Origin: Lachnospiraceae bacterium
GTDB taxonomy: Bacteria; Bacillota; Clostridia; Lachnospirales; Lachnospiraceae
Length of the DNA stretch: 64,000 nucleotides
Assembly (NCBI GenBank): GCA_017460885.1
Contig: JAFUAB010000041.1
Location: 1 to 64,000 of the forward strand
Reading direction: 5' to 3'
Shown here: one piece after another, positions 7,708 to 23,470 of the stretch
Numbering within the stretch: the stretch's first letter is position 1
How the letters are laid out: every line of letters begins with the position of its first letter
Translations under genes and position numbers: made by a program
Notes under the pieces: generated by a model
Database searches by the model: none
Told to the model about the DNA's origin: nothing
Seen by the model: only the letters and a program-made list of their open reading frames with translations

Positions 7708-7781
7708 GCCCTGTGTCGCGACAAAACCGTCTCCAGCGAGGAATCGGCGGAACGGCTTTCTCCATAACGCGACGGTGTGGC
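7708..7781. repeat. imperfect palindrome R (copy C), platform II left border
   Basis: GCCCTGTGTCGCG at the left pairs with CGCGACGGTGTGGC at the right; the inner part contains AATCGGCGG, also found in copy D. It opens platform II copy 1. Confidence 0.65.
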
Positions 7782-7784
7782 AAT

Positions 7785-8035
7785 CTGTAATCGAAGATAA
7801 GGTAAAAATGTAACCGAAGATAAGGCAAGAATGTAATCGGGGATAAAAGCCGTGGAATCGAGGATAGGGCAAAAATGTAATCAGGGATAAAAGTCGTGGA
7901 ATCGAGGATAGGGCAAGAATGTATGCGGAGATAAGAGTCGTGTAATCGGAGATAAGAGTCGTGTAACCGGGGATAGGCAAGAATGAAATCGGAGATAAGA
8001 GTCGTGTAACCAGAGATAAAGCACTCTGTAGCATT
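7785..8035. repeat. degenerate 20-24 bp tandem array (array 2)
   Basis: About eleven units close to gtgtaatcggagataagagtc, e.g. atgtaaccgaagataaggc, atgtaatcggggataaaagc, gtgtaaccggggataggc. Spacing of 20-24 bp suggests protein-binding iterons on one helical face. It lies between palindrome R and the promoter at 8068, like array 3 at 16694, but with an unrelated consensus. Confidence 0.7.
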
Positions 8036-8067
8036 CCGTGAAAATTCTGTGAAAAGCGCTCTGTTCA

Positions 8068-8096
8068 TTGAAAAACGGGCGTTTTTATGGTATGAT
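8068..8096 (+). promoter_or_regulatory. promoter with palindromic spacer, platform II copy 1
   Basis: TTGAAA, 17 bases, TATGAT. The spacer contains AAAACGGGCGTTTT, an inverted repeat that could be an operator. Nearly the same promoter is at 17054 and 34078. Confidence 0.75.
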
Positions 8097-8166
8097 GAGG
8101 GTGGTATAGGAGGTACTCCATTAAGCAAGTTTTACGGTTTATGATAGACTGTTCGGAGGTGATCGT

Positions 8167-8403
8167 ATGAGCCAGAGCATAGTATACTGTGATAATAACC
8201 CAATCAGGACAGAGGGTTCGGCTTGGCTGAATAAGTACATAGGTAGAATCGCTGTGGGGATAGAAATTGCAAAGAACCTTTTCGATATAATCGCATACTC
8301 TGATAATGCTTCAGATTCAAAGACATTGCGGGGCTATGCCAGGAAGAATGGGGCAGTGTATCTAAAGAGCGTGGATAATAGTGGGGTGACGTCAATTGAC
8401 TGA
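8167..8403 (+). CDS. small partner protein of a retropepsin-like protease (pair 1)
   Basis: A 78-residue protein starting after CGGAGGTGATCGT. The stretch NPIRTEGSAWLNKYIGRIAV...FDIIAYSDNASD...LRGYARKNG aligns by eye with NPPRTISKEKWMNEH...VVYAFTNNPEY...LSEYRKKRN of the 93-residue protein at 11676-11957. Both precede and overlap a retropepsin-like gene, so this is a recurring two-gene unit. The function is unknown; substrate, inhibitor or targeting factor for the protease are all possible. Confidence 0.65.
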   Translation: MSQSIVYCDNNPIRTEGSAWLNKYIGRIAVGIEIAKNLFDIIAYSDNASDSKTLRGYARKNGAVYLKSVDNSGVTSID

Positions 8404-8887
8404 TATATCTGTTAGAGCAGAAAAGAACGGAACTGTCTATAATGTTCCTATTCGGATTGGAATGGATTTCTTTGACGCAAAATTTGATACAGGATCAAGC
8501 ACTACTGTGATAGCTGCATCGGTTTTTTATGATGGATGGAGTGATGCGGAACTGAAGAACCTTGAGGACTTTTGTGAGTCAAAGGGTTGTACTAAAAGGG
8601 AGTTCACATCTGCGTCGGGACACAAACTTGCAGGCTATCCCGTGGTTGCGACAGATATATTGATCGGAGACACAGAATTCAAAGAGTTTCACTATTACCT
8701 GATTACAAACGGACGTAAAGAAATGTCGCTCCTCGGTGATGATTTTATTGAAAATTGCAGGTACACGCATGAACCTCACGAAGATGTAGAAATTACAAAG
8801 TTTGATTTTGATAATTATTGCGGAGTGAACGATACCTGCATGACCAGTGATGAAGTACTCAGCTTTATCGATGATCTGGTAGGATGA
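8396..8887 (+). CDS. retropepsin-like aspartic protease (pair 1)
   Basis: A 163-residue protein with start TTG 8396, overlapping the preceding gene by 8 bases. FDTGSSTTVIAAS is the aspartic protease active-site motif (D-T-G) followed by the hydrophobic strand. A later LLGDDFIEN matches the conserved Ile/Leu-Leu-Gly segment of single-lobed, dimeric retropepsins. There is no signal peptide, so it should act in the cytoplasm. The acidic C-terminal tail after about residue 120 is extra. The partner gene and substrate are unknown. The related protein at 11174 has DPG instead of DTG. Confidence 0.75.
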   Translation: MTDISVRAEKNGTVYNVPIRIGMDFFDAKFDTGSSTTVIAASVFYDGWSDAELKNLEDFCESKGCTKREFTSASGHKLAGYPVVATDILIGDTEFKEFHYYLITNGRKEMSLLGDDFIENCRYTHEPHEDVEITKFDFDNYCGVNDTCMTSDEVLSFIDDLVG

Positions 8888-8923
8888 AAAGAGTTTGATC
8901 TAAAAATACCAACCAAAAGCCTC

Positions 8924-9046
8924 CGATCCCTTTATTAATAGAAGGGACACCGGGGGCTTTTGTCATACCTCACAAACTTTCCGTGACCTTTGAAAATTGC
9001 CTTGATATGTAGCGGACTCTCTGATAAAGTCAGTCACCAAACGAAC
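8924..9046 (+). terminator. terminator and conserved downstream block, platform II copy 1
   Basis: AAAGCCTCCGATCCC ... GGGACACCGGGGGCTTTT forms a long stem with trailing T's (8925-8962). The next ~85 bases (cacaaactttccgtgacc ... ctctgataaagtcag) are almost identical to 17996-18064. The block separates cargo from the recombinase-like start in both platform II copies. Confidence 0.75.
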
Positions 9047-9124
9047 GATCCCCGCCTCACTTCTCCCTTGGAGGCGAAGGGAAGAACAAGAACAGTATCA
9101 GGGAGGGAATAGGAGAGGAACGGC

Positions 9125-9238
9125 ATGGAAAGAATCGATTTTGATAAGTACGATCTTCACGGAGAGGAGCTGCTGATTGCGGCTGCAGTCGCAGGACTTT
9201 ATGATATTTTGTATCAAGAAGCTTTTGGAATGCTATAA
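9125..9238 (+). pseudogene. N-terminal remnant of a recombinase-linked gene
   Basis: Thirty-seven codons, MERIDFDKYDLHGEELLIAA..., matching the start of the broken serine-recombinase gene at 18103 (FDLSKYNLRGEELLASATV) and a shorter trace near 35690. It stops after unrelated residues. It marks the right end of platform II copy 1. Confidence 0.6.
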
Positions 9239-9470: not shown

Positions 9471-9499
9471 ATAGTAACATTAAGGGACTTTTTTGTCAA
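9471..9499 (-). promoter_or_regulatory. sigma-70 type minus promoter
   Basis: TTGACA (9499-9494), 17 bases, TACTAT (9476-9471). No intact gene follows on that strand until past 9230. Confidence 0.7.
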
Positions 9500-9652: not shown

Positions 9653-10273
9653 TTGAACGAATCAATCATCGACAACCTAATAGAACGGTATCCGGCTCTC
9701 TCATATGCAAGGGAGGACTTCACAGCCGCTTACGATATCTTGGAAGCCACATACGAACACGGTGGTAAGCTCTTAACCGCCGGAAACGGAGGATCCGCTG
9801 CTGATGCAGAGCACATAGCTGGCGAGTTGATGAAGAGGTTCCGGCTTCCGAGGCCAATAAACGATTCCCTGGCTGAGAAGCTGATAAGCATTGATAAAGA
9901 GCGGGGAGCTTCTTTAGCTCGTAACCTTGAGCAATGCCTCATGGCGATACCTTTAGTTGCTCACGAAGCCCTCACAACAGCATATATCAACGATGTCGAT
10001 GGCTATGGTGTGTTTGCACAGCAGCTCCTTGGTTTCGGCAGAGAAGGCGACTGTTTCTTAGCAATAAGCACATCCGGAAACAGTGAGAACATCCTGAATG
10101 CCGCGGTTGTAGCTAAAGCCGTGGGAATAAGCATTATTGGATTGACCGGTGCAGACGGTGGAAATCTGAAGGAACTTGCTGATGTAACAGTACGTGTTCC
10201 GGAGACGGAAACATATAAGATTCAGGAACTGCATCTGCCAATTTATCATGCCTGGTGCATGATGCTGGAGTAG
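9653..10273 (+). CDS. gmhA: sedoheptulose-7-phosphate isomerase
   Basis: A 206-residue SIS-domain protein. AGNGGSAADAEHIAGEL (about residues 43-59) is the GmhA signature, and a second SIS segment ISTSGNSENIL lies near 145. The enzyme makes heptose 7-phosphate, the first step to NDP-heptose for surface glycans. Start TTG 9653 lies six bases after AAAGGA; no in-frame ATG fits. The length is normal, so this is the only intact member of the heptose cluster here. The next two steps are present only as a deleted fusion (10324-10834), so the pathway is incomplete unless supplied elsewhere. Confidence 0.85.
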   Translation: MNESIIDNLIERYPALSYAREDFTAAYDILEATYEHGGKLLTAGNGGSAADAEHIAGELMKRFRLPRPINDSLAEKLISIDKERGASLARNLEQCLMAIPLVAHEALTTAYINDVDGYGVFAQQLLGFGREGDCFLAISTSGNSENILNAAVVAKAVGISIIGLTGADGGNLKELADVTVRVPETETYKIQELHLPIYHAWCMMLE

Positions 10274-10323: not shown

Positions 10324-10834
10324 GTGAAAACCGTCATAATGGCAGGCGGGAAAGGCTCGCGGATACAATCTGTAAACTCAGAACTTCCGAAGCCGTTGAT
10401 TCCGATAAATGGCAGACCCATACTGCAATGGGAAATTGAGTGTCTGGTTCGGCAGGGCTTCACAGATATAATCCTTACGGTCTCCCACAAGGCGGAGATG
10501 ATAGAGGATTACTTTAGGGATGGATCTAAGTTCGGAGCTTCAATCACCTACTAAAGGGTTTGCCGGTGAGATAAGTTCCCTCAAGTTTGACTGCGACTGT
10601 CGAAAGCCAAAGCCTGGGCTTATCGTACGAGCCGCTAAAGATTTCAACATTGATATTGAGGCATCGTGGATGATCGGCGATGGTTGGAGAGATGTTGAAT
10701 GCGGCATAAATGCAGGGACTCACACAGTTCTCATAACTGGAGAAGGAACCGAAGGAGGAGAGTGTGAGAGACTGGCAGATATGACTGCTCCTGATTTATT
10801 AAGGGCAGTAAAGAAAATCATATGTCTTCAATAA
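10324..10834 (+). pseudogene. heptose-1-P nucleotidyltransferase / heptose-bisphosphatase, internal deletion
   Basis: The first 77 codons (GTG 10324; MKTVIMAGGKGSRIQS...PKPLIPINGRPILQWEIE) are the start of an NDP-sugar pyrophosphorylase of HddC type, with the GGKGSR nucleotide loop. The frame breaks at about 10550. In another frame (to 10834) comes the C-terminal half of a GmhB-type HAD phosphatase (CRKPKPGLI, MIGDGWRDVECGINAG). NTase-HAD arrangements of this kind occur in heptose clusters. The middle, including the HAD nucleophile DxD motif, is missing, so both activities are lost. Confidence 0.75.
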
Positions 10835-11057
10835 AAACAAGAATCCGAATTGCTTTATCACTATCGGAGCGGAGGATATTCATAACCGCTGTGGAAATCC
10901 ACAATCCTTCCGAACTTGATGAAATTGAAATTGAAATGAATGAGTGTGAGCGTAAGCGTGAGTGTGAGAGTGGGGAGAACTGTGAGAGTGGGGAGGGCTG
11001 TGAAGGCTGTGAGGGCGATGAACGAACAGCTCTGAAAAAACTGGATAATGTGGAAAG
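10835..11057. other. low-complexity stretch before platform I copy 2
   Basis: It has TGTGGAAATCCACA near 10890 (6-bp arms), also present at 19281 before platform copy 3, so it marks a shared border. Then 10940-11020 is a GA/GT-rich repeat (gtgagagtggggag units). An 80-codon frame across it is probably not a gene. Confidence 0.5.
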
Positions 11058-11112
11058 TATATAACCCGGCGTGGGGAGCATGATGTTTGTTGTTCCTCGT
11101 GCCGGATTTTTT
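11058..11112. repeat. recurring hairpin, platform I left border (copy 2)
   Basis: ACCCGGCGTGGGGAGC ... CCTCGTGCCGGAT followed by T's; the same unit as at 226 and 19551 with a few substitutions. Confidence 0.75.
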
Positions 11113-11124
11113 GTTGCGCATTGA

Positions 11125-11173: not shown

Positions 11174-11698
11174 TTAAGATGTTTTTCGGAATTTATCTGC
11201 AACCGTGTCGAAGTCCAGCAACTTCTGACCGGCGTAATAATCCGCTCCGGGTTTATCCTTCATTCCTGTGATGTTTAGATTTCCGTTGATGGTATGGACA
11301 TAACCGCAGTCATCAGTAAAAGAGCTTCCGAGAAGCGGTATGCTTATCTCGTCAAACGAAATATCGAAATAGAAGTCCAGTCTCTTTGTGTTCTCAATCG
11401 ATACATTGTGGCATATGCACGGATAAGTGGCAACATACTGGCTGTTTGCGGCTTTGAGAGGCTTTGAACGTGGCAATATCTGCTGAATGGCAAGTTCGCT
11501 TTTTATCAATTCTTCAAGCCTGGATCTGTTTTTCTTGTCATCTCCCTCGCTGAAAAAACTATTTACGCCGATAACAGGACAGGCAGCTCCTGGATCGAAC
11601 AGAAATACAAGGTCTTTATCCTCGTCAAGAATGCCATTAATATCGAAGAAGTGAAATCTGTTTATTTTTTGTGAGCTAAAAGAGGCTATTAAGTCCAT
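11174..11698 (-). CDS. retropepsin-like protein with altered active site (pair 2)
   Basis: A 174-residue protein. FLFDPGAACPVIGV stands where 8396 has KFDTGSSTTVIAA, and IPLLGSSFTDDCGYVH matches MSLLGDDFIENCRYTH, so the fold is shared. The catalytic D-T/S-G reads D-P-G; the Asp is kept but the hydrogen-bonding Thr/Ser is lost, so activity is doubtful. It overlaps the upstream partner gene by 23 bases. As in pair 1 it has no signal peptide and ends in an extra tail. It sits on platform I, whereas pair 1 sits on platform II. Confidence 0.7.
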   Translation of the reverse strand: MDLIASFSSQKINRFHFFDINGILDEDKDLVFLFDPGAACPVIGVNSFFSEGDDKKNRSRLEELIKSELAIQQILPRSKPLKAANSQYVATYPCICHNVSIENTKRLDFYFDISFDEISIPLLGSSFTDDCGYVHTINGNLNITGMKDKPGADYYAGQKLLDFDTVADKFRKTS

Positions 11699-11957
11699 CA
11701 GAAGAAATTCCCATTAAAATATGCTGCTGCTTATAATTTCTTTTCTTGCGGTATTCACTAAGTAAATAGTTGTACTCTGGATTATTTGTAAAGGCATAAA
11801 CCACGATCATACTGCCCATATTATCGATAATTGCATCGCAGTCCAAATGCTCATTCATCCACTTTTCTTTGCTTATTGTGCGTGGAGGATTGTACTCAAA
11901 AATCCCTGTTTCAGGCTCTGTAATCATACTGTCTTTGTTCTCGGTCGTTGTCGGCAT
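11676..11957 (-). CDS. small partner protein (pair 2)
   Basis: A 93-residue protein with start ATG 11957 after a strong AGGAGGTGATTTT. Residues from about 24 (NPPRTISKEKWMNEH ... IVVYAFTNNPEYNYL) resemble the 78-residue partner at 8167. It is transcribed from the conserved platform I promoter at 12049-12077 and followed, with overlap, by the protease-like gene. Confidence 0.65.
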   Translation of the reverse strand: MPTTTENKDSMITEPETGIFEYNPPRTISKEKWMNEHLDCDAIIDNMGSMIVVYAFTNNPEYNYLLSEYRKKRNYKQQHILMGISSDGLNSLF

Positions 11958-12048
11958 AAAATCACCTCCTAAAAACTAAGGGCTATTGTTGAGACTTGTG
12001 TGATTTACACCAGTTTCTCGGCTCGTCTAATTAAAATACCTCTAACAT

Positions 12049-12077
12049 AGAGTATCATGAAAATGGAGGGATGGCAA
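12049..12077 (-). promoter_or_regulatory. conserved minus promoter, platform I copy 2
   Basis: TTGCCA (12077-12072), 17 bases, TACTCT (12054-12049), the same boxes as at 1337-1365. Confidence 0.7.
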
Positions 12078-12108
12078 GGATTTTTTGAAAGTCCAAACGA
12101 AAGTACCT

Positions 12109-12251
12109 TGTGAGAGTCCGTAGAACAGTACCACATCAATCGCTTTTGTAAGTCCGGGTTTTGACTCTCACAATGGTGCTCATAACAGACAACGCTGATG
12201 AGTGTGGGAGAAGAGGTTGAAGGTAAAGCTGAGATCTTCTTGTCTCTCACA
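12109..12251. repeat. paired large inverted repeats, platform I copy 2
   Basis: TGTGAGAGTC (12109-12118) with GACTCTCACA (12163-12172); TGTGGGAG (12203-12210) with CTCTCACA (12244-12251, one G-T pair). Much of the sequence between the arms is shared with copy 3. Confidence 0.7.
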
Positions 12252-12339
12252 GTGGTAAAGGCCCTAATACCAGATAAAACGCTGAAATTGCTTGATTTTC
12301 AGGTCGATAGATAGGGTGTGTTATGGTAAAATTCAAGCT

Positions 12340-12756
12340 ATGGAGACTTTTGAGACGAGAGAAGTATTCACTATCCTGACGGTCCTTTGGTTCTGCGTGA
12401 TGTGTTTCTTCACTTTCCAGCTTGGACCGGGTACGATAGCAGTGTCAGGACGGTTGACGAAAGTTGTGGAGAGCGTCATAGGGATAGCTTTCTATACGGA
12501 TGAGGAAGTATTAGAACGGCGGATCCGCTTTCTGGCTCATCCGATAGAGTTCTTTATATTGACGGTGCTGACGCTTAAGGCAGTGGGGAGAAGCGGAGCA
12601 ATCATCATTGTGGTCGCACTGATACTCTGGAGCGTTATTTCTGAGGTATTGAAAGTTCGAATCCCCGGCAGGCACTGCAATGGGATAGATATGGTTGGAA
12701 ATATTATCGGTGTGGGGATTGGAGTCCTTATATCGGTCCTTGCAACGATGATGTGA
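12340..12756 (+). CDS. VanZ-like membrane protein (copy 2)
   Basis: A 138-residue protein starting METFETREVF. From LWFCVMCFFTFQ to NIIGVGIGV it is nearly identical to copies 1 and 3, differing at scattered sites (ILTVLTL for VLTVLTL, IIIVVAL for IIGVVAL). ATG 12340 was chosen because copy 3 aligns from here; a TAAAAT box ends 8 bases before it and no ribosome binding site is visible. It is followed at 23 bases by the large DUF2325 gene. Confidence 0.85.
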   Translation: METFETREVFTILTVLWFCVMCFFTFQLGPGTIAVSGRLTKVVESVIGIAFYTDEEVLERRIRFLAHPIEFFILTVLTLKAVGRSGAIIIVVALILWSVISEVLKVRIPGRHCNGIDMVGNIIGVGIGVLISVLATMM

Positions 12757-12778: not shown

Positions 12779-14953
12779 ATGGGAAGAAAAGAAGACCGAA
12801 TAAGGCGGAAAAGAGAAAAATTGGAAAAAATGTCATGGGGCAGCGAAAAAGGAAGTGCCTCATCCATGCAGCCGTTTATCGCTGATGGCGTGAAGATATT
12901 CCCTGTTTCAAACGCAAATGCGAATCAGGGGATGGCTCCTTTGGCAAACCCTGAAAGTTCTGCTCCTATGCTGATGGATTCGAATCAGCTGAAGCGACAA
13001 ATGCATACCATGACGGACGATGAGCTCAATCAGCTGATGTATATGCAGGCGAAGGATGCCGTGGAAAACGGCACGATGGAAGCATGGCCGGAGGATGATT
13101 TTGGCGTGGTCATGTGGTTCATGTTCTCCTTTATAACGCCCGAGATGAGGGAAGCCTTTCCAGAGATTGCGAAGGAGTATATAAACCACGAGGAAATAGT
13201 GAGGAGAGGGGATTCTTTTGACGATATCCCATATCCGAGGTCGAACGAGAAACACTGGGAGGATGCGTACTATTATAGGATCCTTGGCATCATGATCCAT
13301 TCCGCGAGGCGGGGATCGAGCTACAGCAGGAATTTTCTCCTGTCCCTTTACAAAGTTTATTACAAGCGTGCATATAACAGACTGAAACGGATGAAGGAGC
13401 TGAACTACCTTGATTTCCTAGGGATGTTTGATGAGGATTGCCGGGAACATGGCTATTCATCGTCGCACTCAACCGTTCAGTTTGGTGAGAAAGGTTCGTC
13501 GTTCAAGGAGCAGACCATAGAGAGGCGCAGGCACGAGGCGGGCTGGATGGATGTGTTCGGCGACCGTTTCCTGTCTCCGGTTCCGGAGGGAAAGATCGAG
13601 AAGAACGATGAGCTGGAGCAGGCGGCAAGCATGGTCAGGGACATGGCAGAATCTCCCGATGAACCTCCGTTGCAGCCGGTGGCATCAAGGATTTTCATCA
13701 TGTGTGAGATGCTGGGGATAGAGATTGACGAGACATGTAACAGGCAGGCTGTCCTCATGAACCAGGAGATTGGAAGCATGCTTGCTCTCGAATTTCTGGG
13801 CGGCACGGATTACCGTGATGCGATGCGCGATGTGACGGACAGGACGCGTGCATGGATCAAGGCTACGTATCCTGAGATGAAGGATCCTTACATCTATCAG
13901 ACAGATGAGAGGTTCTTCCATTTGCAGATAGCAGAGGAGATCCTCGCAAAAGCATTCATGACATACGGGCGTAATGTAAGGATGCCCTATGAGAGCAGGA
14001 AGTTCGATCTGCCGAACCTGATATCAAAAATGCTTGTGACCATTGACATTGACTTTCCGGGATACTCCCCAGGATTCGGAGAGACACTGTACCTTGCCAT
14101 GATACAGTATCTGTCGGAATGTCTGTGCGATATGATGATCACAAGAGACAGCGAGATCGAGGAGCTACTTCATTTCCACAGAATGATCCACAGAGGCGAG
14201 TGGGATGTGAAAGCCGGGGACAACGTGTTCGATGAGGGAAAAGAACGGGGATCGGATCCGAAACAGGACAGGGTGCTGAAGGCCGTGTCGGAATCGACTA
14301 ACGCCGCAGAATCCGCTGCTTCCACAAAAAAAGGAGCAGAAGCGTCGGATAGCATCAAATTGGAGGAGGACAAGAGCATAGAAGCCCTTGAAGCAGAAAT
14401 AGCGGAACTGAAAGCCCGGTTGGAGTCCAAGGAGGAATCGCTGGTCGAGGAGCAGCAGAAAACCATCCGCCAGCGGGTACTTTATGAAAAAACGCGTAAA
14501 AATGAGGAAGAGCTGCGGCAGGAGAGTATGAGGCTGGCGGCTGAGCATGAGGAACTTATTGCGCTTCGGGAGTATGTATATGGCCTAAAGATTGAGGATG
14601 AGACCGGGGAGGATGCGGAAGAGGATCTGAATGTAATGGTCGAGGCCTTGCAGGGAAAGAATGTGGCTGTCCTTGGTGGCATAGAGAAGTGGACCAGGAA
14701 GATGCACAGGCTGTTTCCGGGATGGTCATTCATAGCTGTTGACGACAACAGCATAGGTGCGGTAAATGCCATGGAGTCGGCTGACTACATTTACATCTAC
14801 ACGAACGCCCTTAAACATGACCAGTATTATCGCGCAATGAACATCATAAGAGCCGGAAATAAGATGCTCTATTATCTTGGCAGCACGAACATGGAAGAGA
14901 ATATCAAGAAATTCTACAAGGACCTCTGCCAGGGAGCGGTCAGGGGAGAGTGA
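12779..14953 (+). CDS. large protein with C-terminal DUF2325 domain; platform I plus cargo
   Basis: A 724-residue protein. The first 30 residues are highly basic. The middle (about 70-480) is helical and of unknown fold. Residues 530-615 are a coiled coil (ALEAEIAELKARLESKEESL). Residues 635-720 (NVAVLGGIEKWTRKMHRLFPGW...ADYIYIYTNALKHDQYYRAM) fit DUF2325, a small Rossmann-like domain found at the end of bacterial proteins of unknown role. GAAGGAGAG lies 17 bases before the ATG, which is far. It replaces the cargo genes at 2064 and 21368 in the other platform copies. Confidence 0.75.
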   Translation: MGRKEDRIRRKREKLEKMSWGSEKGSASSMQPFIADGVKIFPVSNANANQGMAPLANPESSAPMLMDSNQLKRQMHTMTDDELNQLMYMQAKDAVENGTMEAWPEDDFGVVMWFMFSFITPEMREAFPEIAKEYINHEEIVRRGDSFDDIPYPRSNEKHWEDAYYYRILGIMIHSARRGSSYSRNFLLSLYKVYYKRAYNRLKRMKELNYLDFLGMFDEDCREHGYSSSHSTVQFGEKGSSFKEQTIERRRHEAGWMDVFGDRFLSPVPEGKIEKNDELEQAASMVRDMAESPDEPPLQPVASRIFIMCEMLGIEIDETCNRQAVLMNQEIGSMLALEFLGGTDYRDAMRDVTDRTRAWIKATYPEMKDPYIYQTDERFFHLQIAEEILAKAFMTYGRNVRMPYESRKFDLPNLISKMLVTIDIDFPGYSPGFGETLYLAMIQYLSECLCDMMITRDSEIEELLHFHRMIHRGEWDVKAGDNVFDEGKERGSDPKQDRVLKAVSESTNAAESAASTKKGAEASDSIKLEEDKSIEALEAEIAELKARLESKEESLVEEQQKTIRQRVLYEKTRKNEEELRQESMRLAAEHEELIALREYVYGLKIEDETGEDAEEDLNVMVEALQGKNVAVLGGIEKWTRKMHRLFPGWSFIAVDDNSIGAVNAMESADYIYIYTNALKHDQYYRAMNIIRAGNKMLYYLGSTNMEENIKKFYKDLCQGAVRGE

Positions 14954-14960
14954 GAGGATT

Positions 14961-15569: not shown

Positions 15570-15642
15570 ATGAGTGGAAGCAACTGCTCGGTTTGACCAG
15601 CCGGGCTTTATTAATAGGAAAGTACAGAAGGGCGCGTCTGTG

Positions 15643-16080: not shown

Positions 16081-16101
16081 AGATACTGAGGGGATTGTAA
16101 A

Positions 16102-16617
16102 ATGGCAAAGAAGCAGATAAAGTATGATATCAAAAATCTTCCATTCCCGATACGACCGGGGGATCAGGTCTACTTTGTTCTGGAAGATGGGAGCATTGAG
16201 GCGGACAAGGCCACTTCCGTCGGAATCAACGAGGATGGGAGGATCCTGATCATGTGCGGACAGGATGAATATGAAGTCGGTGTGAAAGACGGGGCTTTTC
16301 TGTCCGAGGAGGACGCCGAGAAGTACGTCGAGAACCCGGATGCCATTTCGGAGGACTACGGGGAGATAGACTACAGCGATATGGATCTGCCGTATTATCC
16401 AGGGACGGACTTTTATTACTGCGACTATGATGGATTCATGAACAGATGGGAGATTTTCGAGGAGCACTATACCTATGTCTATTTTGACATGAATGGTGAG
16501 GTCTGCGTAGGTGATGGCGACTCCGAGTGCACGGTAATAGGAAAGAACGTGGATCCCTGTTTCGACACTCCAAGAAAAGCACAGGCTTATGTCAGGTCTC
16601 GAATGCGTGAGGACTGA
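16102..16617 (+). CDS. hypothetical acidic protein
   Basis: A 171-residue acidic, aromatic-rich protein. The N-terminal part (RPGDQVYFVLEDGSIEADKATSVGI) looks like a small beta barrel; the rest is DY-rich. No known family. It is probably cotranscribed with the YunG-like gene. Palindrome R copy D follows 4 bases after the stop. Confidence 0.55.
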   Translation: MAKKQIKYDIKNLPFPIRPGDQVYFVLEDGSIEADKATSVGINEDGRILIMCGQDEYEVGVKDGAFLSEEDAEKYVENPDAISEDYGEIDYSDMDLPYYPGTDFYYCDYDGFMNRWEIFEEHYTYVYFDMNGEVCVGDGDSECTVIGKNVDPCFDTPRKAQAYVRSRMRED

Positions 16618-16621
16618 TGGC

Positions 16622-16693
16622 GGCTGTGTCGCAATATGAAGAGTGGCATCGGGGAATCGGCGGAAACCCTCTCTGCATAACGCGACTGTGGGC
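16622..16693. repeat. imperfect palindrome R (copy D), platform II left border
   Basis: GGCTGTGTCGCAATATG pairs with CATAACGCGACTGTGGGC; it shares GGAATCGGCGGAA with copy C. Confidence 0.65.
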
Positions 16694-17035
16694 AACAATG
16701 GTTTATGGGCTGAATGCAAGGAAGTTCTACCTGTTGAAAGCCGTGGTTTATGGGCTGTTTGCCGTGGCTTGTCAGCCATTAGCCGTGGTCTGTACGCTGA
16801 AAGCAACAGCGGTTTTTGAGCCATAAGCTGTGGTCTGTAGGCTGTTTCAATACGGTCTATCATCTATAAGGGTATAGTCTGTACGCTTTAAGGCGTGGTT
16901 TACACGCTACAAGGAATACGGTCTATACGCTATATGGCTCTGAAATAAAAGGAGCTTGCAGGCTGCAAAATGTAGTTTATCGGCTGTGATAAAAACGGTT
17001 TATGTGCCGCATTTTCAGAGGGTAAAAACGGTTTA
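16694..17035. repeat. degenerate ~21-bp tandem array (array 3)
   Basis: Roughly thirteen units near cgtggtttatgggctgaaagc, e.g. cgtggtctgtacgctgaaagc, tgtggtctgtaggctgtttc, tacggtctatacgctatatggc, aaacggtttatgtgccgc. Spacing is mostly 21-22 bp. It has the same position as array 2 but a different consensus. No open frame of note. Confidence 0.7.
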
Positions 17036-17053
17036 TGGGATGTCCTGTTCTCA

Positions 17054-17082
17054 TTGAAAAACGGACGTTTTTGTGGTAGGAT
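17054..17082 (+). promoter_or_regulatory. promoter with palindromic spacer, platform II copy 2
   Basis: TTGAAA, 17 bases holding AAAACGGACGTTTT, TAGGAT. The start of the Rpn gene is only 18 bases past the -10 box, so the leader is very short. Confidence 0.75.
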
Positions 17083-17100
17083 AACGGTGGAAGGATAGGA

Positions 17101-17925
17101 TTGTTTGAGGGAGACATAACATTGGAGGATTCGCAGAAAAACTATATGACGGATGATAATCTGCGTATACTAAACGCATTCCGTCTTATGGATGATGATT
17201 TTATGAATCTCGTCTTTAATGAGAATTATGAAGCAGTAGAGTTGCTCCTTAACATTATTCTGGAACGAAACGATATAGAGGTTAAGCGCGTTGAAATCCA
17301 AAAAGAGGAAAAGAGCCCCGTAATAGGTGGAAGATCTATAACTCTTGATATTTTTGCAATGGATTCGACAGGGAAGAACTACGATATAGAAGTTCAGAGA
17401 GCAGATCGTGGAGCCGGATTTAAGAGGGCGAGAATTCACAGCAGTGCACTTGATTCGAGGATTATGAAGGCGGGGCAGGACTTTGAAGATGTAGATGATT
17501 CTTATGTGGTTTTTATAACAGAGAATGATGTGGTGGGACTCGGATTACCGATGTACCATGATGAGCGTGTCATATTGGAGGATAACAGGCTGGCAAATGA
17601 TGGCTCCCACATCATATATGTGAATGGAGCATATAAAAATGATGAGGATCCAGTTGGACGTTTGATGCATGATTTCAGATGTACCAGCGCATCAGATATG
17701 TTTTATGATGTCTTGGCTTCTCAGGTTAGATTCTTTAAGGAGACAGAAGGAGGGCAGGAGCAAGTGTGTAAGATGATAGAGGATGAAAGAGATAAGACAA
17801 GGATTGCTCTGTTGTTTGAGAATATCAAGAACATAATGGAAGAAACTAAGTGGTCCCTTGAGAAGGCGATGTCCGTTCTTAAGGTGTCTGATAAAGACAG
17901 GGCAACGTTATCTAAGATGTTTTGA
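17101..17925 (+). CDS. Rpn/PD-(D/E)XK transposase-family nuclease
   Basis: A 274-residue protein. LNAFRLMDDDFMNLVF...EAVELLLNIIL, then SITLDIFAMDSTGKNYDIEVQRAD (D and ExQ of the PD-(D/E)XK core) and a helical ARIHSSALDSRIM follow the recombination-promoting nuclease (Rpn) family. These nucleases are linked to recombination and, in E. coli, to phage defence. The TTG start at 17101 is taken because the promoter leaves little room; ATG 17146 is possible but lacks a binding site. Near the C-terminus AGGAG precedes GTG 17764 and ATG 17773 (VCKMIEDERDKTR...), so a short C-terminal product may be made separately, as in E. coli Rpn systems. Confidence 0.8.
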   Translation: MFEGDITLEDSQKNYMTDDNLRILNAFRLMDDDFMNLVFNENYEAVELLLNIILERNDIEVKRVEIQKEEKSPVIGGRSITLDIFAMDSTGKNYDIEVQRADRGAGFKRARIHSSALDSRIMKAGQDFEDVDDSYVVFITENDVVGLGLPMYHDERVILEDNRLANDGSHIIYVNGAYKNDEDPVGRLMHDFRCTSASDMFYDVLASQVRFFKETEGGQEQVCKMIEDERDKTRIALLFENIKNIMEETKWSLEKAMSVLKVSDKDRATLSKMF

Positions 17926-17947
17926 AATGACCAAGAAATAACCACCA

Positions 17948-18074
17948 AGAGCCTCCGATCCCTATAATAGAAGTAGGGATACCGGGGGCTTTTGTCATCC
18001 CTCACAAACTTTCCGTGACCTTTGAAAATTGCCTTGATATGTAGCGGACTCTCTGATAAAGTCAGTGGCTAAAC
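17948..18074 (+). terminator. terminator and conserved downstream block, platform II copy 2
   Basis: GAGCCTCCGATCCCTA ... TAGGGATACCGGGGGCTTTT stem with T's, then the block shared with 8963-9046 (cacaaactttccgtgacc to gataaagtcag). Confidence 0.75.
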
Positions 18075-18102
18075 AAAGACCACGCAGAGAAAGGAGAACG
18101 GT

Positions 18103-18620
18103 ATGGATAAGATCAATAAGTTCGATTTAAGCAAGTACAATCTTCGCGGCGAGGAGCTGCTTGCCTCGGCAACAGTTACAGGACTCTATGCGATGCAGGC
18201 AGACGGGGCTGATTGCCCACATTGCGACTTTGGATCCCTTGTTGAAGGTGTTGAGGGAAAGCAGGTCACGATAAACGCTCCTGCGGCAAAGGAGATCATA
18301 CGATTCATCTACGAGAGATTTGTGGAGGGAGACACGTACAGCGCCATCTCAAAACAGCTTGAAGAGAAAGGAGCAAGGCGGCTCCGTTCCGACAAGCCAT
18401 TCAGCGCATCGGCAATCATCCGCTTTACGGACACCTTTTCTGCGCCGAGTGCGGGGCCCCTTTCAAAAGGCGTACGCTCACGAATTCCTGTGGCCATTAC
18501 AAGGCATGGAACTGCGCCGAGAGGCAGAAGGGGAAGAACGGGAACGGCTGCAGGAACATGGTCTGGAAAGAGGAGGTCCTCACCGATGCGGTCTGTGGAC
18601 TCCTTGGATATAGAGTGCGG
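18103..18620 (+). pseudogene. large serine recombinase, fragmented
   Basis: MDKINKFDLSKYNLRGEELL is followed by a recombinase-domain segment (PAAKEIIRFIYERFVEGDTYSAI, QLEEKGARR), then a frameshift. In another frame at about 18427-18610 comes the Cys4 zinc ribbon LFCAECGAPFKRRTL...GHYKAWNC. The catalytic N-terminal resolvase domain with its serine is absent, so it cannot be active. Its first residues are also found alone at 9125. It was probably the enzyme of an integrated element. Confidence 0.75.
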
Positions 18621-18911: not shown

Positions 18912-19550
18912 GAAGAAGTACGTCAGCTCCGAATACGGAAAAACGAAGCGATCCGGGAACTTGTTCAGGGAAGTGCTTAAGGCCCTTAAGGCCCTTAACC
19001 CTATGCGAGGAGTGGAAGTGCCGGTGCCTGAATTGCAGCGGCGTGAAGAGTTAAAAAAGTTAGAAAGCGGTGAGTCCTGAAAAGTTAGAAAGCGGTAGAA
19101 GTGGTGAGGGTGTAGACAGTGTAGATAGTGTAAAGGGTAAACACGTCCTCCACATCGGCGATAATTACATCTCTGATGTACTTATGCCGAGGAAATGTGG
19201 GATGAAGAGCTTCCTGTATAATCGGCTTTCCCGGAGTTAGGAGTTAAGAGAGCGTTGTGAGGAGTGTGAGGTGTGTTACCGCTGTGGAAATCCACAATCA
19301 TTAGGAGTGGTTCGGCGGATACCAAAACTGACGAGCTGGATGAAGTGGATGAAGTGGATTAGTGTGGAAATGTACGAGCCTTCTGGACAACATCTGCCAG
19401 AGGGCTTTTCTTGGTTTTGTTCATTGCTTCAGTTTTCCTCCTTTGTTTTATAGTTAGTAGTTTTCGCAAACTCAAATTATAACACAAGGAGGTGCTGAAG
19501 CGATGAACAAAGGTAGGAAGATGTGGAGTGAGTGTGGAAAGTATATAACT
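18912..19550. other. scrap region of surface-sugar genes
   Basis: At 19145-19240 a 31-codon frame reads VLHIGDNYISDVLMPRKCG..., a HAD motif IV fragment. At 19022-19080 a small frame holds two gttagaaagcggt repeats. TGTGGAAATCCACA at 19281 matches 10890. No intact gene is present. Confidence 0.5.
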
Positions 19551-19603
19551 ATATAACCCGGCGTGGGGAGCGTGATGTTTGTTGTTCCTCGTGCCGGGTT
19601 TTT
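19551..19603. repeat. recurring hairpin, platform I left border (copy 3)
   Basis: Nearly base-for-base the unit at 226, including gtggaaagtatataactatata before it and ttgcgcattgtg after it. Confidence 0.8.
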
Positions 19604-19619
19604 TGTTGCGCATTGTGTT

Positions 19620-20498
19620 CTAATCATCGTCCTCCATATTAAGGACTTCCTCTGCCACATCCTCGTCATCCCAGTCGGGGTGTGAGCTTAGTACGGCTTT
19701 GATGTTGTTCAGTGTCTTCATGGATATTTTCAAAAACTTTATAATCATGTCATCTGGTGCATCTACATCTCGTACCTGCCTTACATAAGTTCTATAATCT
19801 CCAATCTCCTTCATATCCGCCGCATTCGCATAAATACTCATATATTCCCGCCTCCTTTCTTCGTTCTGCTTGATCTCGGAAACCGCACTGTCAAGCATCC
19901 TCGTATAATCCGATGTGGGCTCGTTCCCATCCATGTAGGAGAGCATTTCTTTTATCTCAGTGCTCACTTCGTGCCCCTCAGCATCTGTGGTTCCCTTTGT
20001 GTTCAGAACATACCAATTTGATGCGCTGTTCATCTTGATGTCATGATCCCATGAGCAGGATGTCTCGAATGGATAGACATACCATCCCTTTCCGAAAGGG
20101 TCATAAGTGGTGATGAAGATGATATAGGCGGTCTTCAGCTTATTGAAATCATCGCCCTTTGAAACAATGGAAACGTCAATTGTTCCCTGGTAATAACGGA
20201 AGCGTTTTCCGAGATGCCGTTTCCTTGAAGCCTGCATTTCCACATCATATACCGTGTTCGCATCATCTTCAATATACACATCCATCCGTATCCCGCGAGA
20301 CTGATAGCCCGTTTCTATGGGCTTCTCCGTGGCAACTATGACAATCTTCCGGATCTTCTTTCCCAGTATCATCTCCAGAAGGGGCTTGACATGGTTCGGG
20401 TCCTGCATGACCGCCTGAAACATATAGTTGTCTGTGATGGTTAAGCTCTCGAAGGGCTTTTTCTCCGGGGAATTCTTTTTCTGTTTCTGTTCTTCCAA
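19620..20498 (-). CDS. Rpn family recombination-promoting nuclease/putative transposase
   Basis: A 292-residue protein with clear family marks: TITDNYMFQAVMQDP, LLEMILGKKIRKI, GIRMDVYIEDDANTVYDVEMQ (catalytic D and E-Q), RFRYYQGTIDVSIVSKGDDF and AYIIFITTYDPFG. The length is typical. It is transcribed from the conserved platform I promoter (20550-20578). Its C-terminal VLNMEDDD is echoed by the stub at 11125. Rpn proteins are sequence-nonspecific nucleases linked to RecA-independent recombination. As the most complete nuclease here it is a candidate for mobilising the repeated cargo, though nothing shows that directly. Confidence 0.9.
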   Translation of the reverse strand: MEEQKQKKNSPEKKPFESLTITDNYMFQAVMQDPNHVKPLLEMILGKKIRKIVIVATEKPIETGYQSRGIRMDVYIEDDANTVYDVEMQASRKRHLGKRFRYYQGTIDVSIVSKGDDFNKLKTAYIIFITTYDPFGKGWYVYPFETSCSWDHDIKMNSASNWYVLNTKGTTDAEGHEVSTEIKEMLSYMDGNEPTSDYTRMLDSAVSEIKQNEERRREYMSIYANAADMKEIGDYRTYVRQVRDVDAPDDMIIKFLKISMKTLNNIKAVLSSHPDWDDEDVAEEVLNMEDDD

Positions 20499-20549
20499 AA
20501 CTCGATAAATCCTCTGAATTAATGCATTTACCTATAATTACTCAAATTT

Positions 20550-20578
20550 ATAATAGCATGAAAATAGAGGGATGGCAA
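20550..20578 (-). promoter_or_regulatory. conserved minus promoter, platform I copy 3
   Basis: TTGCCA (20578-20573), 17 bases, TATTAT (20555-20550). Confidence 0.7.
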
Positions 20579-20645
20579 GGAAAAATTTGATCTTGTGAGA
20601 GCCGCCTGAGAGCTGATTAAAGGGCTTGTAAAGGGCTTAAATGGA

Positions 20646-20790
20646 GTGAGAGTGTCCATAGAACAGTACCACGAGCAATCGCCATTGTAAGTCCGGATTT
20701 TGACTCTCACAATGGTGCTCATAACGGACAGGGTTGATGAGTGTGGGAGAAGAGGTGGATGGTAAAGCTGAGATCTTCTTGTCTCCCACA
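20646..20790. repeat. paired large inverted repeats, platform I copy 3
   Basis: GTGAGAGTGTC (from 20646) with GACTCTCACA (20702-20711); TGTGGGAG (20742-20749) with CTCCCACA (20783-20790). Confidence 0.7.
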
Positions 20791-20893
20791 GTGGTGCGGT
20801 GGTGAAGAGCGGCAAGGGATATGCCGGACAAAACGCAGAAATTGTTTTATTTTTCGGTCGATAGATAGGGCGTGTTATGGTAAAATTCAAGCT

Positions 20894-21301
20894 ATGGAGA
20901 CTTTGGAGACGAGAGAAGTATTTAGCATCCTGACAGTCCTCTGGTTCTGCGTGATGTGTTTCTTCACTTTCCAGCCGGGACCGGGTACGATAGCGGTGTC
21001 GGGACGGTTGACGAAAGTTGTGGAGAGCGTTATAGGGATAGCTTTCTATACGGATGACGAGTACTTGGAACGACAGATCCGCTTCCTGGCTCATCCGATT
21101 GAGTTTGCAGTTCTGACGGTGCTGACGCTTAAGGCAGTGGGGAGAAGCGGAACAATCATCGGTGTGGTCGCACTGATACTCTGGAGCATTATTTCTGAGG
21201 TGTTGAAAGTTCGAATCCCCGGACGACACTGCAACGGAATTGACATGGTTGGGAATATTATCGGTGTGGGAGTCGGCGTACTTCTCATCGTTTTAGTATA
21301 G
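20894..21301 (+). CDS. VanZ-like membrane protein (copy 3)
   Basis: A 135-residue protein starting METLETREVFSILTV. It is nearly identical to copies 1 and 2 from residue 15 on, with DDEYLERQ for DEEVLERR and a different last few residues (GVLLIVLV). Differences cluster at the ends; the middle is constant, which suggests purifying selection or gene conversion. The TAAAAT box before the ATG is as in copy 2. The next gene begins 67 bases on. Confidence 0.85.
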   Translation: METLETREVFSILTVLWFCVMCFFTFQPGPGTIAVSGRLTKVVESVIGIAFYTDDEYLERQIRFLAHPIEFAVLTVLTLKAVGRSGTIIGVVALILWSIISEVLKVRIPGRHCNGIDMVGNIIGVGVGVLLIVLV

Positions 21302-21367
21302 GCGTCACCAGGCAATCTTTAAGCATTACTAAGCATCAGATACAATGCACAAATGATAGGAATATAA

Positions 21368-22936
21368 ATGGAAACAGTAAACGGAGAATTCATAATGCAG
21401 TCCTGTGAGGCAGATGATCCAAACCGCCTGCGGACGATAGATGACCTGTACGACCTTGTTCGTACTATCGGATTTCTGCCTTTGTTTGCCAGTAGTTTGC
21501 CGGGGGATAAGGGTTCTAAAAGCTCTAAAAGCTCTAACGTCTTATCAGGCTTGTCCGGTTTGTCAGGCTTATCAGGTTTCTCCGTTGAGGAGCGCGTGAC
21601 GGCGGAGCAGTGGTGGACGGGTGACAGTTATTCCGATCCGTGGGAATGGAGAATTATGGCATCGCGTCATCCCGATATCGCCTACGGCAAGTTCTTTGAC
21701 AGGAAGGCGGGATTTATCAGCAGGGAATGGTTCCCGGTGTTTGCCAATTACCGCCGTGAGGGGTATGATTTTGAGGCTCTTTTTGAGGATGAACTGGCGA
21801 GCTATCGTTCCAAGAAGATTATGGATGCACTGGGGCTTGATGGCGAGGGGCAAAGCTCTGAAATCATGAGCAATGAACTGAAAACTCTGGCAGGCTTTGG
21901 CAAGAGGGCTGACGGCACTGCCGGCGAGAAGAACTTCGAGGGAATCCTCACAGAGCTTCAGATGCAAAGCTATGTGATCATGTCGGATTTCCAGAGGAGA
22001 AAAAACAAAAAGGGACAGGATTACGGATGGCATATTGCCATGATATCCACGCCGGAGACAAAATGGGGATATGATCATGTTACAAGTGCGTATTCGGAGG
22101 ATCCGGCTGATTCGTGGGAACGGATAAAGGGACAGATTAAAAGTTTCTTTCCGGAGGCTGATGATGAGAGTATTTTCAAGCTCCTGGGCATCAGATGGGC
22201 ATCCTCCTCCGTGAGTGTTGATAATAATACAAAGAAGAGTATCAAAACAACCACAGCAAAAGTCCGAAAGAACCCACGCCCACAGGAACTTCCATGGCCT
22301 GAGAATATCATCACAGAGATGCGGGTATCGGATGTGCTGGAGAAGGAGACTTATGAACCGCTGAATGATGACCAGATGGAAGGTCTCCGTTTTGCAATAA
22401 GTACTTTGAAAGACACCGAGCAGAGAGTTATAAAGCTTCGGTATGAGGAGCATAGGACGCTTAAATACTGCGGCAAGGAGATGGGGCTTTCCAGCTCACG
22501 GATTCAGCAAATCGCAAAGAAGGCGATACGCAAGCTTCATCATCCGTCAAGGACAGTATATATCCGGGAAGGCTATCAAGGCTACCTTAAGCGGAAGCAG
22601 GCCGAGAAGCTTAAGATGCAGAACGGCGTCAGGAACATGACTGATGACGAGCGAATAGAGTTTTTAGCTGGAATACAAACATCTGATGTCGGTCTATCCG
22701 CACGATCCTATAACTGCCTGCGCAGAGCGGGACTTGATACCATGGCAGATGTCTTAAGGAAAGCTGAGGAAGGCAATGTGAAGGTCAATCTGACAGCCTG
22801 GACCGTTGATGTAAAAGGGTTGCTGGGCATCAGAAATCTGGGAAAGAAGTCCACGCTTGAAGTGCTGGAGAAGCTGGAGGAGTATGGTGTGGACATTAGC
22901 AAATATGTGACTGAGTATGGTCTTGAGGGGATGTGA
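21368..22936 (+). CDS. AlkZ-related domain fused to sigma-70 region 4 and an alpha-CTD-like domain
   Basis: A 522-residue protein. Residues 1-75 hold a GLSGLSGLSG linker. Residues 75-275 (WEWRIMASRHPDIAYGKFFDRKAGFIS, ANYRREGYDF, LTELQMQSYVIMSDF, YGWHIAMISTPE) match AlkZ-related winged-helix proteins, relatives of DNA glycosylases. Residues 340-400 (LNDDQMEGLRFAISTLKDTEQRVIKLRY...SSSRIQQIAKKAIRKL) are a sigma-70 region 4 helix-turn-helix, which reads -35 boxes. Residues 430-515 (LSARSYNCLRRAGLDTMADVL...VKGLLGIRNLGKKSTLEVLEKL) resemble the RNA polymerase alpha C-terminal domain. It is the platform I plus cargo of copy 3. A transcriptional role is inferred. Confidence 0.75.
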   Translation: METVNGEFIMQSCEADDPNRLRTIDDLYDLVRTIGFLPLFASSLPGDKGSKSSKSSNVLSGLSGLSGLSGFSVEERVTAEQWWTGDSYSDPWEWRIMASRHPDIAYGKFFDRKAGFISREWFPVFANYRREGYDFEALFEDELASYRSKKIMDALGLDGEGQSSEIMSNELKTLAGFGKRADGTAGEKNFEGILTELQMQSYVIMSDFQRRKNKKGQDYGWHIAMISTPETKWGYDHVTSAYSEDPADSWERIKGQIKSFFPEADDESIFKLLGIRWASSSVSVDNNTKKSIKTTTAKVRKNPRPQELPWPENIITEMRVSDVLEKETYEPLNDDQMEGLRFAISTLKDTEQRVIKLRYEEHRTLKYCGKEMGLSSSRIQQIAKKAIRKLHHPSRTVYIREGYQGYLKRKQAEKLKMQNGVRNMTDDERIEFLAGIQTSDVGLSARSYNCLRRAGLDTMADVLRKAEEGNVKVNLTAWTVDVKGLLGIRNLGKKSTLEVLEKLEEYGVDISKYVTEYGLEGM

Positions 22937-22940
22937 GAGT

Positions 22941-23449
22941 ATGAAAAAGCGGTACATTGCTTATGGCTTGATTCTGATCGAATTGATCATTCAGGTCATA
23001 GGATTTATTGACTACGATGGGGCTCCGTCTTTTCTGTGGACACTAGCTGATGCGATCGTGTTTCTGGTTCCGCTGCTGTTTGGAACCAGGCTGGGAATGA
23101 TATGTCTCCTGCCCGTCGCCGTATCGGAGATAGTATGGTTTTTATCGTATCACTCAGTGGGGCACTTTTGCACCTGTTATCCTTCGCCATTGCAGTCATT
23201 ATACTGGGGGCAGTCAGTAAAAAGATCAACCGGGAGGCTGGATTTCGCAGGGGAGTATTCAGCATTATCCTGTTTATTGCGGTTTGGGTTTTGGAAGAAG
23301 TGCTGTACCGTGCGTTGGTCGCACTGTTTCTGCAAATCCCTTTTGCCTGGGCAGATGTGTTCAAATCAATCCTTTCACCTGTCACAATTATTGTCGTGAT
23401 GATGTTGGCGGGATTTGTCAAGATTGATAAAAGCAGAGCCTCTGCATAG
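22941..23449 (+). pseudogene. membrane protein, frameshifted
   Basis: The frame from ATG 22941 gives LILIELIIQVIGFI, DAIVFLVPLLFGTRLG and VAVSEIVWFLSYHS, then turns non-membrane. A second frame takes over at about 23155 with GALLHLLSFAIAVIILGAV...FSIILFIAVWVLEEVLYRALVALFL and ends KIDKSRASA at 23449. Joined, they make one protein of about 165 residues with five membrane segments. The shared C-terminus survives at 3096-3140. No family recognised. Confidence 0.6.
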
Positions 23450-23470
23450 ATATCCTGCCGGTGCTTTTCT
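23425..23470 (+). terminator. candidate terminator shared with 3118-3165
   Basis: AAAAGCAGAGCCTCTGC...GGTGCTTTT with outer arms AAAAGCA/TGCTTTT; it overlaps the end of the membrane-protein frame and is repeated after the remnant at 3096. Confidence 0.5.

Follow-up and report, generated by a model that had tools for sequence, protein, structure and literature searches.

The question raised by this locus is how the signals between genes can be conserved among the copies of a repeated array while the genes that they serve are not. The array lies in a stretch of 64,000 nucleotides (the window), positions 1-64,000 of contig JAFUAB010000041.1 (C19) in the 55-contig Lachnospiraceae genome GCA_017460885.1. 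The window carries copies 1 and 2 and a half copy (copy 0, or W0; 217-2036), and a fourth, full copy lies upstream at C50:123001-131812. The conserved blocks are collinear, the cargo genes differ, and the same blocks have changed neighbours in a second genus. We consider it fairly probable that the array represents modular gene shuffling between conserved regulatory blocks, within a capsule-bearing island of approximately 117 kb.

Conserved blocks and differing cargo

Self-BLAST of the window found eight blocks common to copies 1 and 2, with the same strand and the same order throughout (E-values 4.5e-5 to 0). Their positions in copy 1 and copy 2, respectively, are as follows:

5402 and 15456
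7734 and 16647
8065 and 17051
8896 and 17928 (89% identical)
9135 and 18122
10691 and 18607
11055 and 19547 (91% identical)
12109 and 20647 (86% identical)

A preliminary description had proposed a super-repeat of about 8.5-8.9 kb with one order, in two copies. Order and strand are conserved in all eight blocks and both copies are real, but there are also the full copy on C50 and the half copy at the start of the window, and the common sequence is small: the seven blocks within 7708-16600 sum to about 1.1 kb, or 12% of the 8.9-kb unit, and more than half of this is the block of the direct-repeat (DR) element and VanZ. A true 8.5-kb repeat was rejected on this figure. A dot-plot of only scattered short matches had been named as the outcome that would speak against a super-repeat; the matches are indeed short, but they keep one order on one strand. 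The super-repeat is a scaffold of short blocks, mostly intergenic, the exceptions being the VanZ-like gene and short gene remnants.

The block kinds are R, PA, T (with PT), H, PB, DR and PV. Identity exceeds the shuffle maximum for T (87-89%, 3/3 pairs), H (81-100%, 10/10 pairs), the DR region (71-91%, 15/15 pairs) and PA (75-92%, 6/6 pairs, with a narrow margin in the lowest). Between copies, VanZ is 71-86% identical. Cargo genes have 60-66% nucleotide identity, with shuffle maxima of 63-65%; only two of nine pairs exceed the maximum, by 1-2 points (A-cargo of copies 1 and 2, 65 vs 64; B-cargo of copy 0 and C50, 66 vs 64, which share a tail), one pair ties, and the remaining pairs are no better than shuffled sequence. 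The proposal that the signals are conserved and the genes are not is thus upheld for T, H, DR and PA, which stand above shuffles, and 7/9 cargo pairs do no better than shuffles.

Cargo sits on platform A, between PA and T, and on platform B, between H and PB on the minus strand:

8167..8887, plus: platform A, copy 1, small protein and retropepsin-like gene (Asp_protease_2, 24.0 bits, cut-off 24.3)
17101..17925, plus: platform A, copy 2, Rpn-type nuclease (PDDEXK_2, 36.1 bits, cut-off 27.4; TIGR01784, 33.3 bits, under the cut-off of 52.1)
321..1306, minus: platform B, copy 0, nuclease-like gene of 341 amino acids (aa), by eye, with no Pfam or NCBIfam family over cut-off
11174..11957, minus: platform B, copy 1, small protein and retropepsin-like gene, with no Pfam family of its own
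19620..20498, minus: platform B, copy 2, Rpn nuclease (TIGR01784, 80.7 bits, cut-off 52.1)

The C50 copy has a Transposase_31-like protein of 300 aa (21.8 bits, cut-off 21) on platform A and a nuclease-like gene of 375 aa, with no family over cut-off, on platform B. The PD-(D/E)XK label for the 341-aa and 375-aa cargoes goes beyond the domain matches and was given by eye. An opposite arrangement of the two cargo families in the two copies had been described; instead, copy 1 has the small protein and retropepsin-like gene on both platforms, and copy 2 has Rpn/PDDEXK_2 on both. The two retropepsin-like genes of copy 1 are 25% identical over 112 aa (E 8e-10, single comparison).

Such a locus could also arise if one unit was duplicated in tandem long ago and then decayed: genes would be degraded or replaced singly, and promoters and terminators kept by selection, with no active exchange. 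The copies are tandem, collinear and in one orientation, and several genes between T and H are fragments, as this explanation predicts, but the cargo open reading frames (ORFs) on both platforms are open. The second genome bears further on this point.

Changed neighbours in a second genus

The second genome, G171, is a metagenome-assembled genome (MAG) of a roe-deer-rumen Lachnospiraceae from another genus, with key contigs C34 and C54. A search with 7677-12765 against 299 genomes of the family (own genome included) gave 41 with a match at E 1e-4; the places listed for these, outside the own genome and G171, are SIS and HAD genes, whereas G171 has parts of the array. The family-wide DNA searches scored the two best candidates per genome and may miss short blocks. 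A scan for the exact H pattern in genome_contigs (84,980 species, with records near the own genome possibly left out) matched only JAFUVF010000066.1, which is the G171 contig. The H pattern and the DR pattern both led nowhere in viral_contigs.

Eight blocks were used as queries against five G171 contigs, and five of them (the DR region, H, R, PA and PB) have matches there. The left border of copy 2, up to R (window 15870-16695), is 95% identical to G171 C34:13426-14252, after which C34 continues as copy 1 (window 7734-8227, 83-87%), with the copy-1 PA and the start of its small gene, until the contig ends. G171 C34:8129-8341 consists of H and a minus-cargo tail (88% to C50); what remains of the gene is without a match in the own island, and a MatE gene and an AMP-binding/PP-binding gene lie beside it. 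Within the copy-0 cargo, the tail (321-497) is common to C50 and G171 C34 and the body (498-1306) to G171 C54, which carries this body (81% over window 498-1351) but has another tail and lacks H. The tail common to W0, C50 and C34 stops within a few bases of GTGCGTGTGGTGT, and is followed by three different bodies.

A relative of the minus-strand Rpn gene of copy 2 is found on G171 C51 (L053, 8491-9390, minus strand, 74% nucleotide identity), a contig without any of the eight block matches; therefore, cargo also exists off the platforms. A second relative, on G171 C99 (L054, 1-261), is accompanied by a PB block.

Three pieces that appear to have been exchanged are 94-95% identical between the own genome and G171, and where the core locus of the two can be aligned, identity is 71% and 67% (one 114-bp piece, 83%). 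Because these three segments reach 94-95%, against approximately 70% for the core locus, they point to recent transfer between genera. Flanking genes that are always kept in related genomes had been named as contrary to exchange; this is not seen, the neighbours in G171 being different. Furthermore, the sequences to the left and to the right of DR, R and H in G171 match different partners (60-95% identity), for which decay alone fails to account. Duplication and decay is in our view unlikely, though it retains some weight.

The direct-repeat element

The element before VanZ had been read as two inverted repeats, and is better described as a direct-repeat pair, TTGACTCTCACA and CTTGTCTCYCACAG, spaced by 69-79 nucleotides (nt). 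In several copies the left arm is lost or changed. In the window it is found at:

1441..1545, plus: DR element, copy 0
12139..12253, plus: DR element, copy 1
20678..20792, plus: DR element, copy 2

Nine elements (six from the own genome, three from G171) were compared in 36 pairs, with one shuffle per pair as control. The core is above the shuffle maximum in 33/36 pairs, and the 100-nt flanks are so in 13/36 (left) and 4/36 (right), although flanks of fixed length score too low in the presence of indels (the pair G54b and C50c is 79% identical over 1301 columns, yet 49% in the left window). The two sides of the core do not have the same partners: C50b is nearest G34 on its left (78%) and G54b on its right (63%).

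The genes that follow the pair are varied. VanZ follows in four copies; at C50:133783-134385 there is a toxin-antitoxin-like gene pair with a ParE-type toxin, the first gene of which also follows in G171 C54, at the contig end; in G171 C34 there is a 121-aa gene (95% to window 3231-3695); and at C50:93.8 kb there is a convergent TetR-like gene (by eye). Since the element is found between divergent, tandem and (C50:93.7 kb) convergent genes, a simple operator role fails to cover all copies. A structured RNA was considered for DR and rejected (z-scores -1.26 and -1.09, with a double change in 1/20 predicted pairs). It is conceivable that the pair is a dedicated exchange site, at which a protein would bind the pair and direct crossover or breakage at the DR2 edge, with left and right gene modules assorting independently in an undescribed chromosomal module-swapping system; this proposal is speculative, and we give it little credence.

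The motif TTGWCTCYCACA has 22 exact matches in the genome, four of them on the redundant contig C33, and the island holds 17 of the remaining 18; for the reversed control pattern there is one match. Counts are 0-2 in congeners (controls 0-1) and six in G171 (control 2), where C34 and C54 account for four. This distribution bears on whether the conserved blocks are small mobile elements, resembling miniature inverted-repeat transposable elements (MITEs) or repetitive extragenic palindromic (REP) sequences, that insert beside genes. The blocks do adjoin many different genes, and TTGWCTCYCACA also occurs singly in the island, but the borders differ by copy, the blocks keep a fixed order, and their self-matches are all in the same orientation apart from one weak minus-strand match of the partly palindromic R (C50:118551). 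When the array was used for DNA queries, C19, C50 and C33 were the only contigs with blocks. MITE and REP families differ from the array in these respects, its blocks being confined to one island (plus the redundant contig) in one orientation; a MITE family was rejected on these grounds, and it is very improbable that the blocks are small mobile elements of any such kind.

Features of the blocks

The other blocks, in order of kind, are as follows:

7708..7785, plus: R element, copy 1 (self-BLAST, alignment)
16620..16695, plus: R element, copy 2 (alignment; match in G171)
7786..8020, plus: minisatellite, copy 1 only (Tandem Repeats Finder, TRF)
8052..8104, plus: predicted promoter block PA (TTGAAA-17-TATGAT), copy 1 (alignment, promoter scan)
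17038..17090, plus: predicted promoter block PA, copy 2 (alignment, promoter scan)
34062..34124, plus: isolated PA-like block (alignment)
8896..9045, plus: T block, terminator-type hairpin with promoter-like PT, copy 1 (89% to 17928-18077)
17928..18077, plus: T block, copy 2 (self-BLAST, folding)
217..278, plus: predicted terminator hairpin H, copy 0 (203-290 is 98.9% identical to 19533-19619, 88 bp)
11055..11115, plus: predicted terminator hairpin H, copy 1 (alignment; z-score -4.8)
19547..19607, plus: predicted terminator hairpin H, copy 2 (alignment; z-score -6.1)
38137..38186, plus: isolated predicted H terminator, near the right end of the island (alignment)
1320..1380, minus: predicted promoter block PB, copy 0 (87% to C50:131029)
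12032..12080, minus: predicted promoter block PB, copy 1 (alignment; absent from the promoter scan)
20533..20593, minus: predicted promoter block PB (TTGCCA-17-TATTAT), copy 2 (alignment, promoter scan)
12281..12345, plus: promoter-like block PV before VanZ, copy 1 (promoter scan)
20835..20899, plus: promoter-like block PV before VanZ, copy 2 (promoter scan)
10890..10903 (copy 1) and 19283..19296 (copy 2), no strand assigned: palindrome TGTGGAAATCCACA, exact in both

R sits directly after the preceding gene. It was rejected as a conserved or structured hairpin, since 113/200 and 77/200 shuffles fold as well in two copies. A tandem array as a general part of the unit was not confirmed either: it is clear only in copy 1, and TRF found none at 16.7-17.0 kb of copy 2 or in the upstream copy. 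PA resembles a promoter (TTGAAA-17-TATGAT or TAGGAT), and its spacer contains a short palindrome. In folding against shuffles, the T hairpin has z-scores of -6.75 (copy 1) and -5.6, and H, a hairpin with a T-run, has -4.8 to -8.3 across copies. PT is a second promoter-like site after the T hairpin, at 9002 and 18034, and the T block at 8911-9045 is 93% identical to C50:125017. The promoter scan has sites at PA, PT and PV in both copies, and at PB in copy 2. Shuffles contain TGTGGAAATCCACA, at up to one mismatch, with a mean of 0.05 matches.

Proposed recombination in the blocks

Recombination within the common blocks is the most economical reading of these patterns. Blocks R, PA, T/PT, H, PB, DR and PV would serve as common borders. 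An incoming gene, whether it came from a different copy of the own genome or from a different member of the Lachnospiraceae, would carry one block; recombination at that block would replace the gene lying between two blocks, and the new gene would land at once between a promoter and a terminator. Such exchange could occur both among copies and with imported DNA. The blocks presumably work as promoters and terminators. Exchange may proceed by homologous or microhomology-driven recombination, with RecA, a phage-type annealing protein or a dedicated recombinase as candidate agents, and selection may favour the array because it would rotate accessory (defence- or toxin-like) genes.

Several observations weigh against modular shuffling. 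The promoter scan found 31 sites in total (21.0 +/- 5.0 in shuffles) and the terminator scan 13 (9.9 +/- 3.2), and single sites are weak in both; H and T are absent from the terminator-scan list, their loops or stems being outside its rule, and rest on folding; PB beats shuffles in 6/10 pairs, a weak result. As the scan totals are little above shuffles, the support for the control sites is their same position in each copy. H plus the tail is found in 2/397 genomes of the family (own genome and G171), with no strain series showing exchange. The T, PT and PV queries have no match on the five G171 contigs searched, and G171 is a MAG in which two key junctions (C34, C54) are at contig ends. The DR repeats have a length of 12-14 nt, which is short for recombination of the RecA type. 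Contig C54 of G171 encodes tyrosine recombinases (Phage_integrase in the three scanned) and also, by eye, an IS66-type transposase that is flanked by DR copies; none of seven such G171 queries (three confirmed Phage_integrase, and by eye three recombinases and the IS66-type transposase) matches the own island (best E 0.58), in which the only recombinase seen is the serine-recombinase remnant at 18103, by a Pfam match just under its cut-off. The earlier proposal of cassette exchange at fixed borders thus stands as far as different neighbours occur at the same signals in G171, but this is one other genome only, and exchange machinery was not found with these queries.

Comparison with known systems

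The absence of any described system of this layout had been asserted. Similar systems were found: the promoter and stem-loop cassettes of T4-like phages, minimal mobile elements of Neisseria and replacement genomic islands. Searches of the open-access literature, most subscription papers being outside that scope, gave these analogues and, among the entries listed, no description of the array itself.

The promoter-early stem-loop (PeSL) cassettes of T4-like phages place a promoter and a stem-loop between accessory ORFs, with a role in shuffling genes among related phages, according to a passage of PMC4503421. The array resembles them in its promoter-like sites (PA, PT, PV, and PB in copy 2), its H and T hairpins and its changed neighbours. 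It differs in being chromosomal, between a Mur-ligase gene and ddl, and in having several distinct block kinds in a fixed order that is repeated as a unit, with DR also between convergent genes. The A half (7677-9480) had no match in the phage collection, the only one searched with it, and the B half (11020-12765) none in the plasmids, likewise the only set searched. For the cassettes, PMC4503421 cites Arbiol 2010 and Comeau 2014.

In the minimal mobile elements of Neisseria, whole-gene cassettes vary between flanks that are conserved, and homologous recombination incorporates them (PMC3898611). The array may be similar in that its cargo genes differ between conserved borders, in a comparison with one other genome of another genus; the flanks of the Neisseria elements are conserved genes, and those of the array are mostly intergenic and several per genome. 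Replacement flexible genomic islands encode exposed structures and are proposed to be exchanged by homologous recombination (PMC4033161). The array shares its island with a capsule cluster, but its exchange would concern one or two genes, within a repeated scaffold.

Integrons are cassette arrays, too. In contrast to these, array cargo is found on either strand, and every cargo has a promoter-like block to itself. A tyrosine integrase was not found in the island with the seven G171 query proteins (best E 0.58), and no intI profile was run. R, as a possible attC site, is partly palindromic and folds no better than shuffles; no attC model was run.

Rpn proteins form toxin-antitoxin systems that combat phage, as stated in part of PMC10327210. 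This family is only cargo of the array, on the two platforms of copy 2, and platforms also carry retropepsin-like and other genes.

Genomic location and assembly

Comparison with six genomes of the genus shows that in 6/6 ddl adjoins a gene for a Mur ligase (534 aa in G001), leading to pyrH. In the own genome, the island of approximately 117 kb separates the two, from the end of the Mur-ligase gene at C50:60128 to the start of ddl near window 38528; the Mur-ligase and Ddl domains were confirmed by domain match, and pyrH was named by eye. Because the first 104 bases of the window are identical to the end of C50, contigs C50 and C19 are probably neighbours, which gene order supports. The island contains a capsule cluster (CpsB/CapC, Wzz, LytR-CpsA, glycosyltransferase), the array, and a stretch with phage-like genes (by eye). 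Beyond the cited domain matches, the names ATP-grasp (a fused G171 gene with no Pfam match), GmhA/GmhB/KdsC, MurF, pyrH, bactofilin and TetR were given by eye.

The first 8000 bases of contig C33 are an exact reverse copy of part of C50, and further along the matches keep step within 1-2 bases. C33 is a near-identical second version of that part, and may explain the contamination estimate of 6.64%. This redundancy, the MAG status of G171 and the 98.9% identity of H in copies 0 and 2 (88 bp) are what would be expected if misjoined repeats had yielded a mosaic in assembly. However, the copies of T, DR, R and PA are several to many percent apart, which argues against misjoined identical k-mers; the same blocks are in two assemblies; and gene order outside the island agrees with six congeners. 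Such an artefact is hardly probable at all.

Also in the island, at window 30753-32296, are a Thg1-type tRNA-His guanylyltransferase gene and then a calcineurin-like phosphoesterase gene. There are recent duplications at window 35035-35266 and 36739-36970 (96% over 232 bp) and at C50:134567 and 136672 (96% over 631 bp). A further repeat set lies left of the array at C50:115434, 116157 and 117442, by eye leaders before small genes.

Other genes of the array

The remaining genes of the array are:

15574..16617, plus: YunG (Pfam) and 171-aa genes, forming with R the left border of copy 2 (15870-16695 is 95% identical to G171 C34)
9135..9203, plus: recombinase-start remnant, copy 1 (75% to 18122-18190)
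18103..18420, plus: serine-recombinase remnant, copy 2 (Pfam Recombinase residues 61-106, E 4e-4, 21.0 bits vs 21.1)
9653..10273, plus: SIS-domain (GmhA-like) gene, copy 1 (Pfam SIS_2)
10520..10834, plus: 3' part of HAD phosphatase (GmhB-like tail), copy 1 (Pfam Hydrolase_like; 81% to 18607-18668)
1632..2036, plus: VanZ-like gene, copy 0 (Pfam VanZ, 29.3 bits, cut-off 30.1)
12340..12756, plus: VanZ-like gene, copy 1 (89% identical to copy 2)
20894..21301, plus: VanZ-like gene, copy 2 (NCBIfam vanZ_1, 24.3 bits, cut-off 20; Pfam VanZ, 28.9 vs 30.1)
2064..3035, plus: cargo after VanZ, copy 0, 323 aa, no family
12779..14953, plus: cargo after VanZ, copy 1, 724 aa
21368..22936, plus: cargo after VanZ, copy 2, AlkZ-rel, sigma-70 r4 and RNA polymerase alpha C-terminal domain (CTD) joined (Pfam)

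The gene after VanZ differs in every copy. VanZ family scans were made for copies 0 and 2, and the other two copies were assigned by alignment. VanZ was sought in 79 genomes (own included), with weak matches of 25-36% identity in 8/78 others and none in the six congeners (0/6); the VanZ alignment led nowhere in genome_contigs and viral_contigs. PADLOC, with ten proteins, matched only a DUF1016/YhcG protein (PDC-S02) and, weakly, the AlkZ-rel protein. Sequence searches of the PDB with two cargo alignments gave one match each (E 0.45 and 0.73).

Inside copy 1, at window 9338-9433 (minus strand), there is a drum RNA (RF02958, 55.1 bits, gathering 43), and the surrounding 9312-9468 is 90% identical to G171 C3:1946-2101. 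A DUF3800-XI RNA (RF02975, 45.8 bits, gathering 37.8) at 4042-4090 (minus strand) is directly upstream of a partial DUF3800-like ORF, 3511-4014 (17.7 bits, cut-off 21). The small protein at 23848-24141 (minus strand) is by eye like one before the C50 retropepsin-like gene, and has no Pfam match.

Implications

The array gives concrete, testable borders for the proposed exchange and an island-specific motif pair. If modular shuffling is true, accessory genes, some of them likely phage-defence genes, would be rotated one at a time through transcription units that stand ready in a bacterial chromosome, and this without an obvious mobile element.

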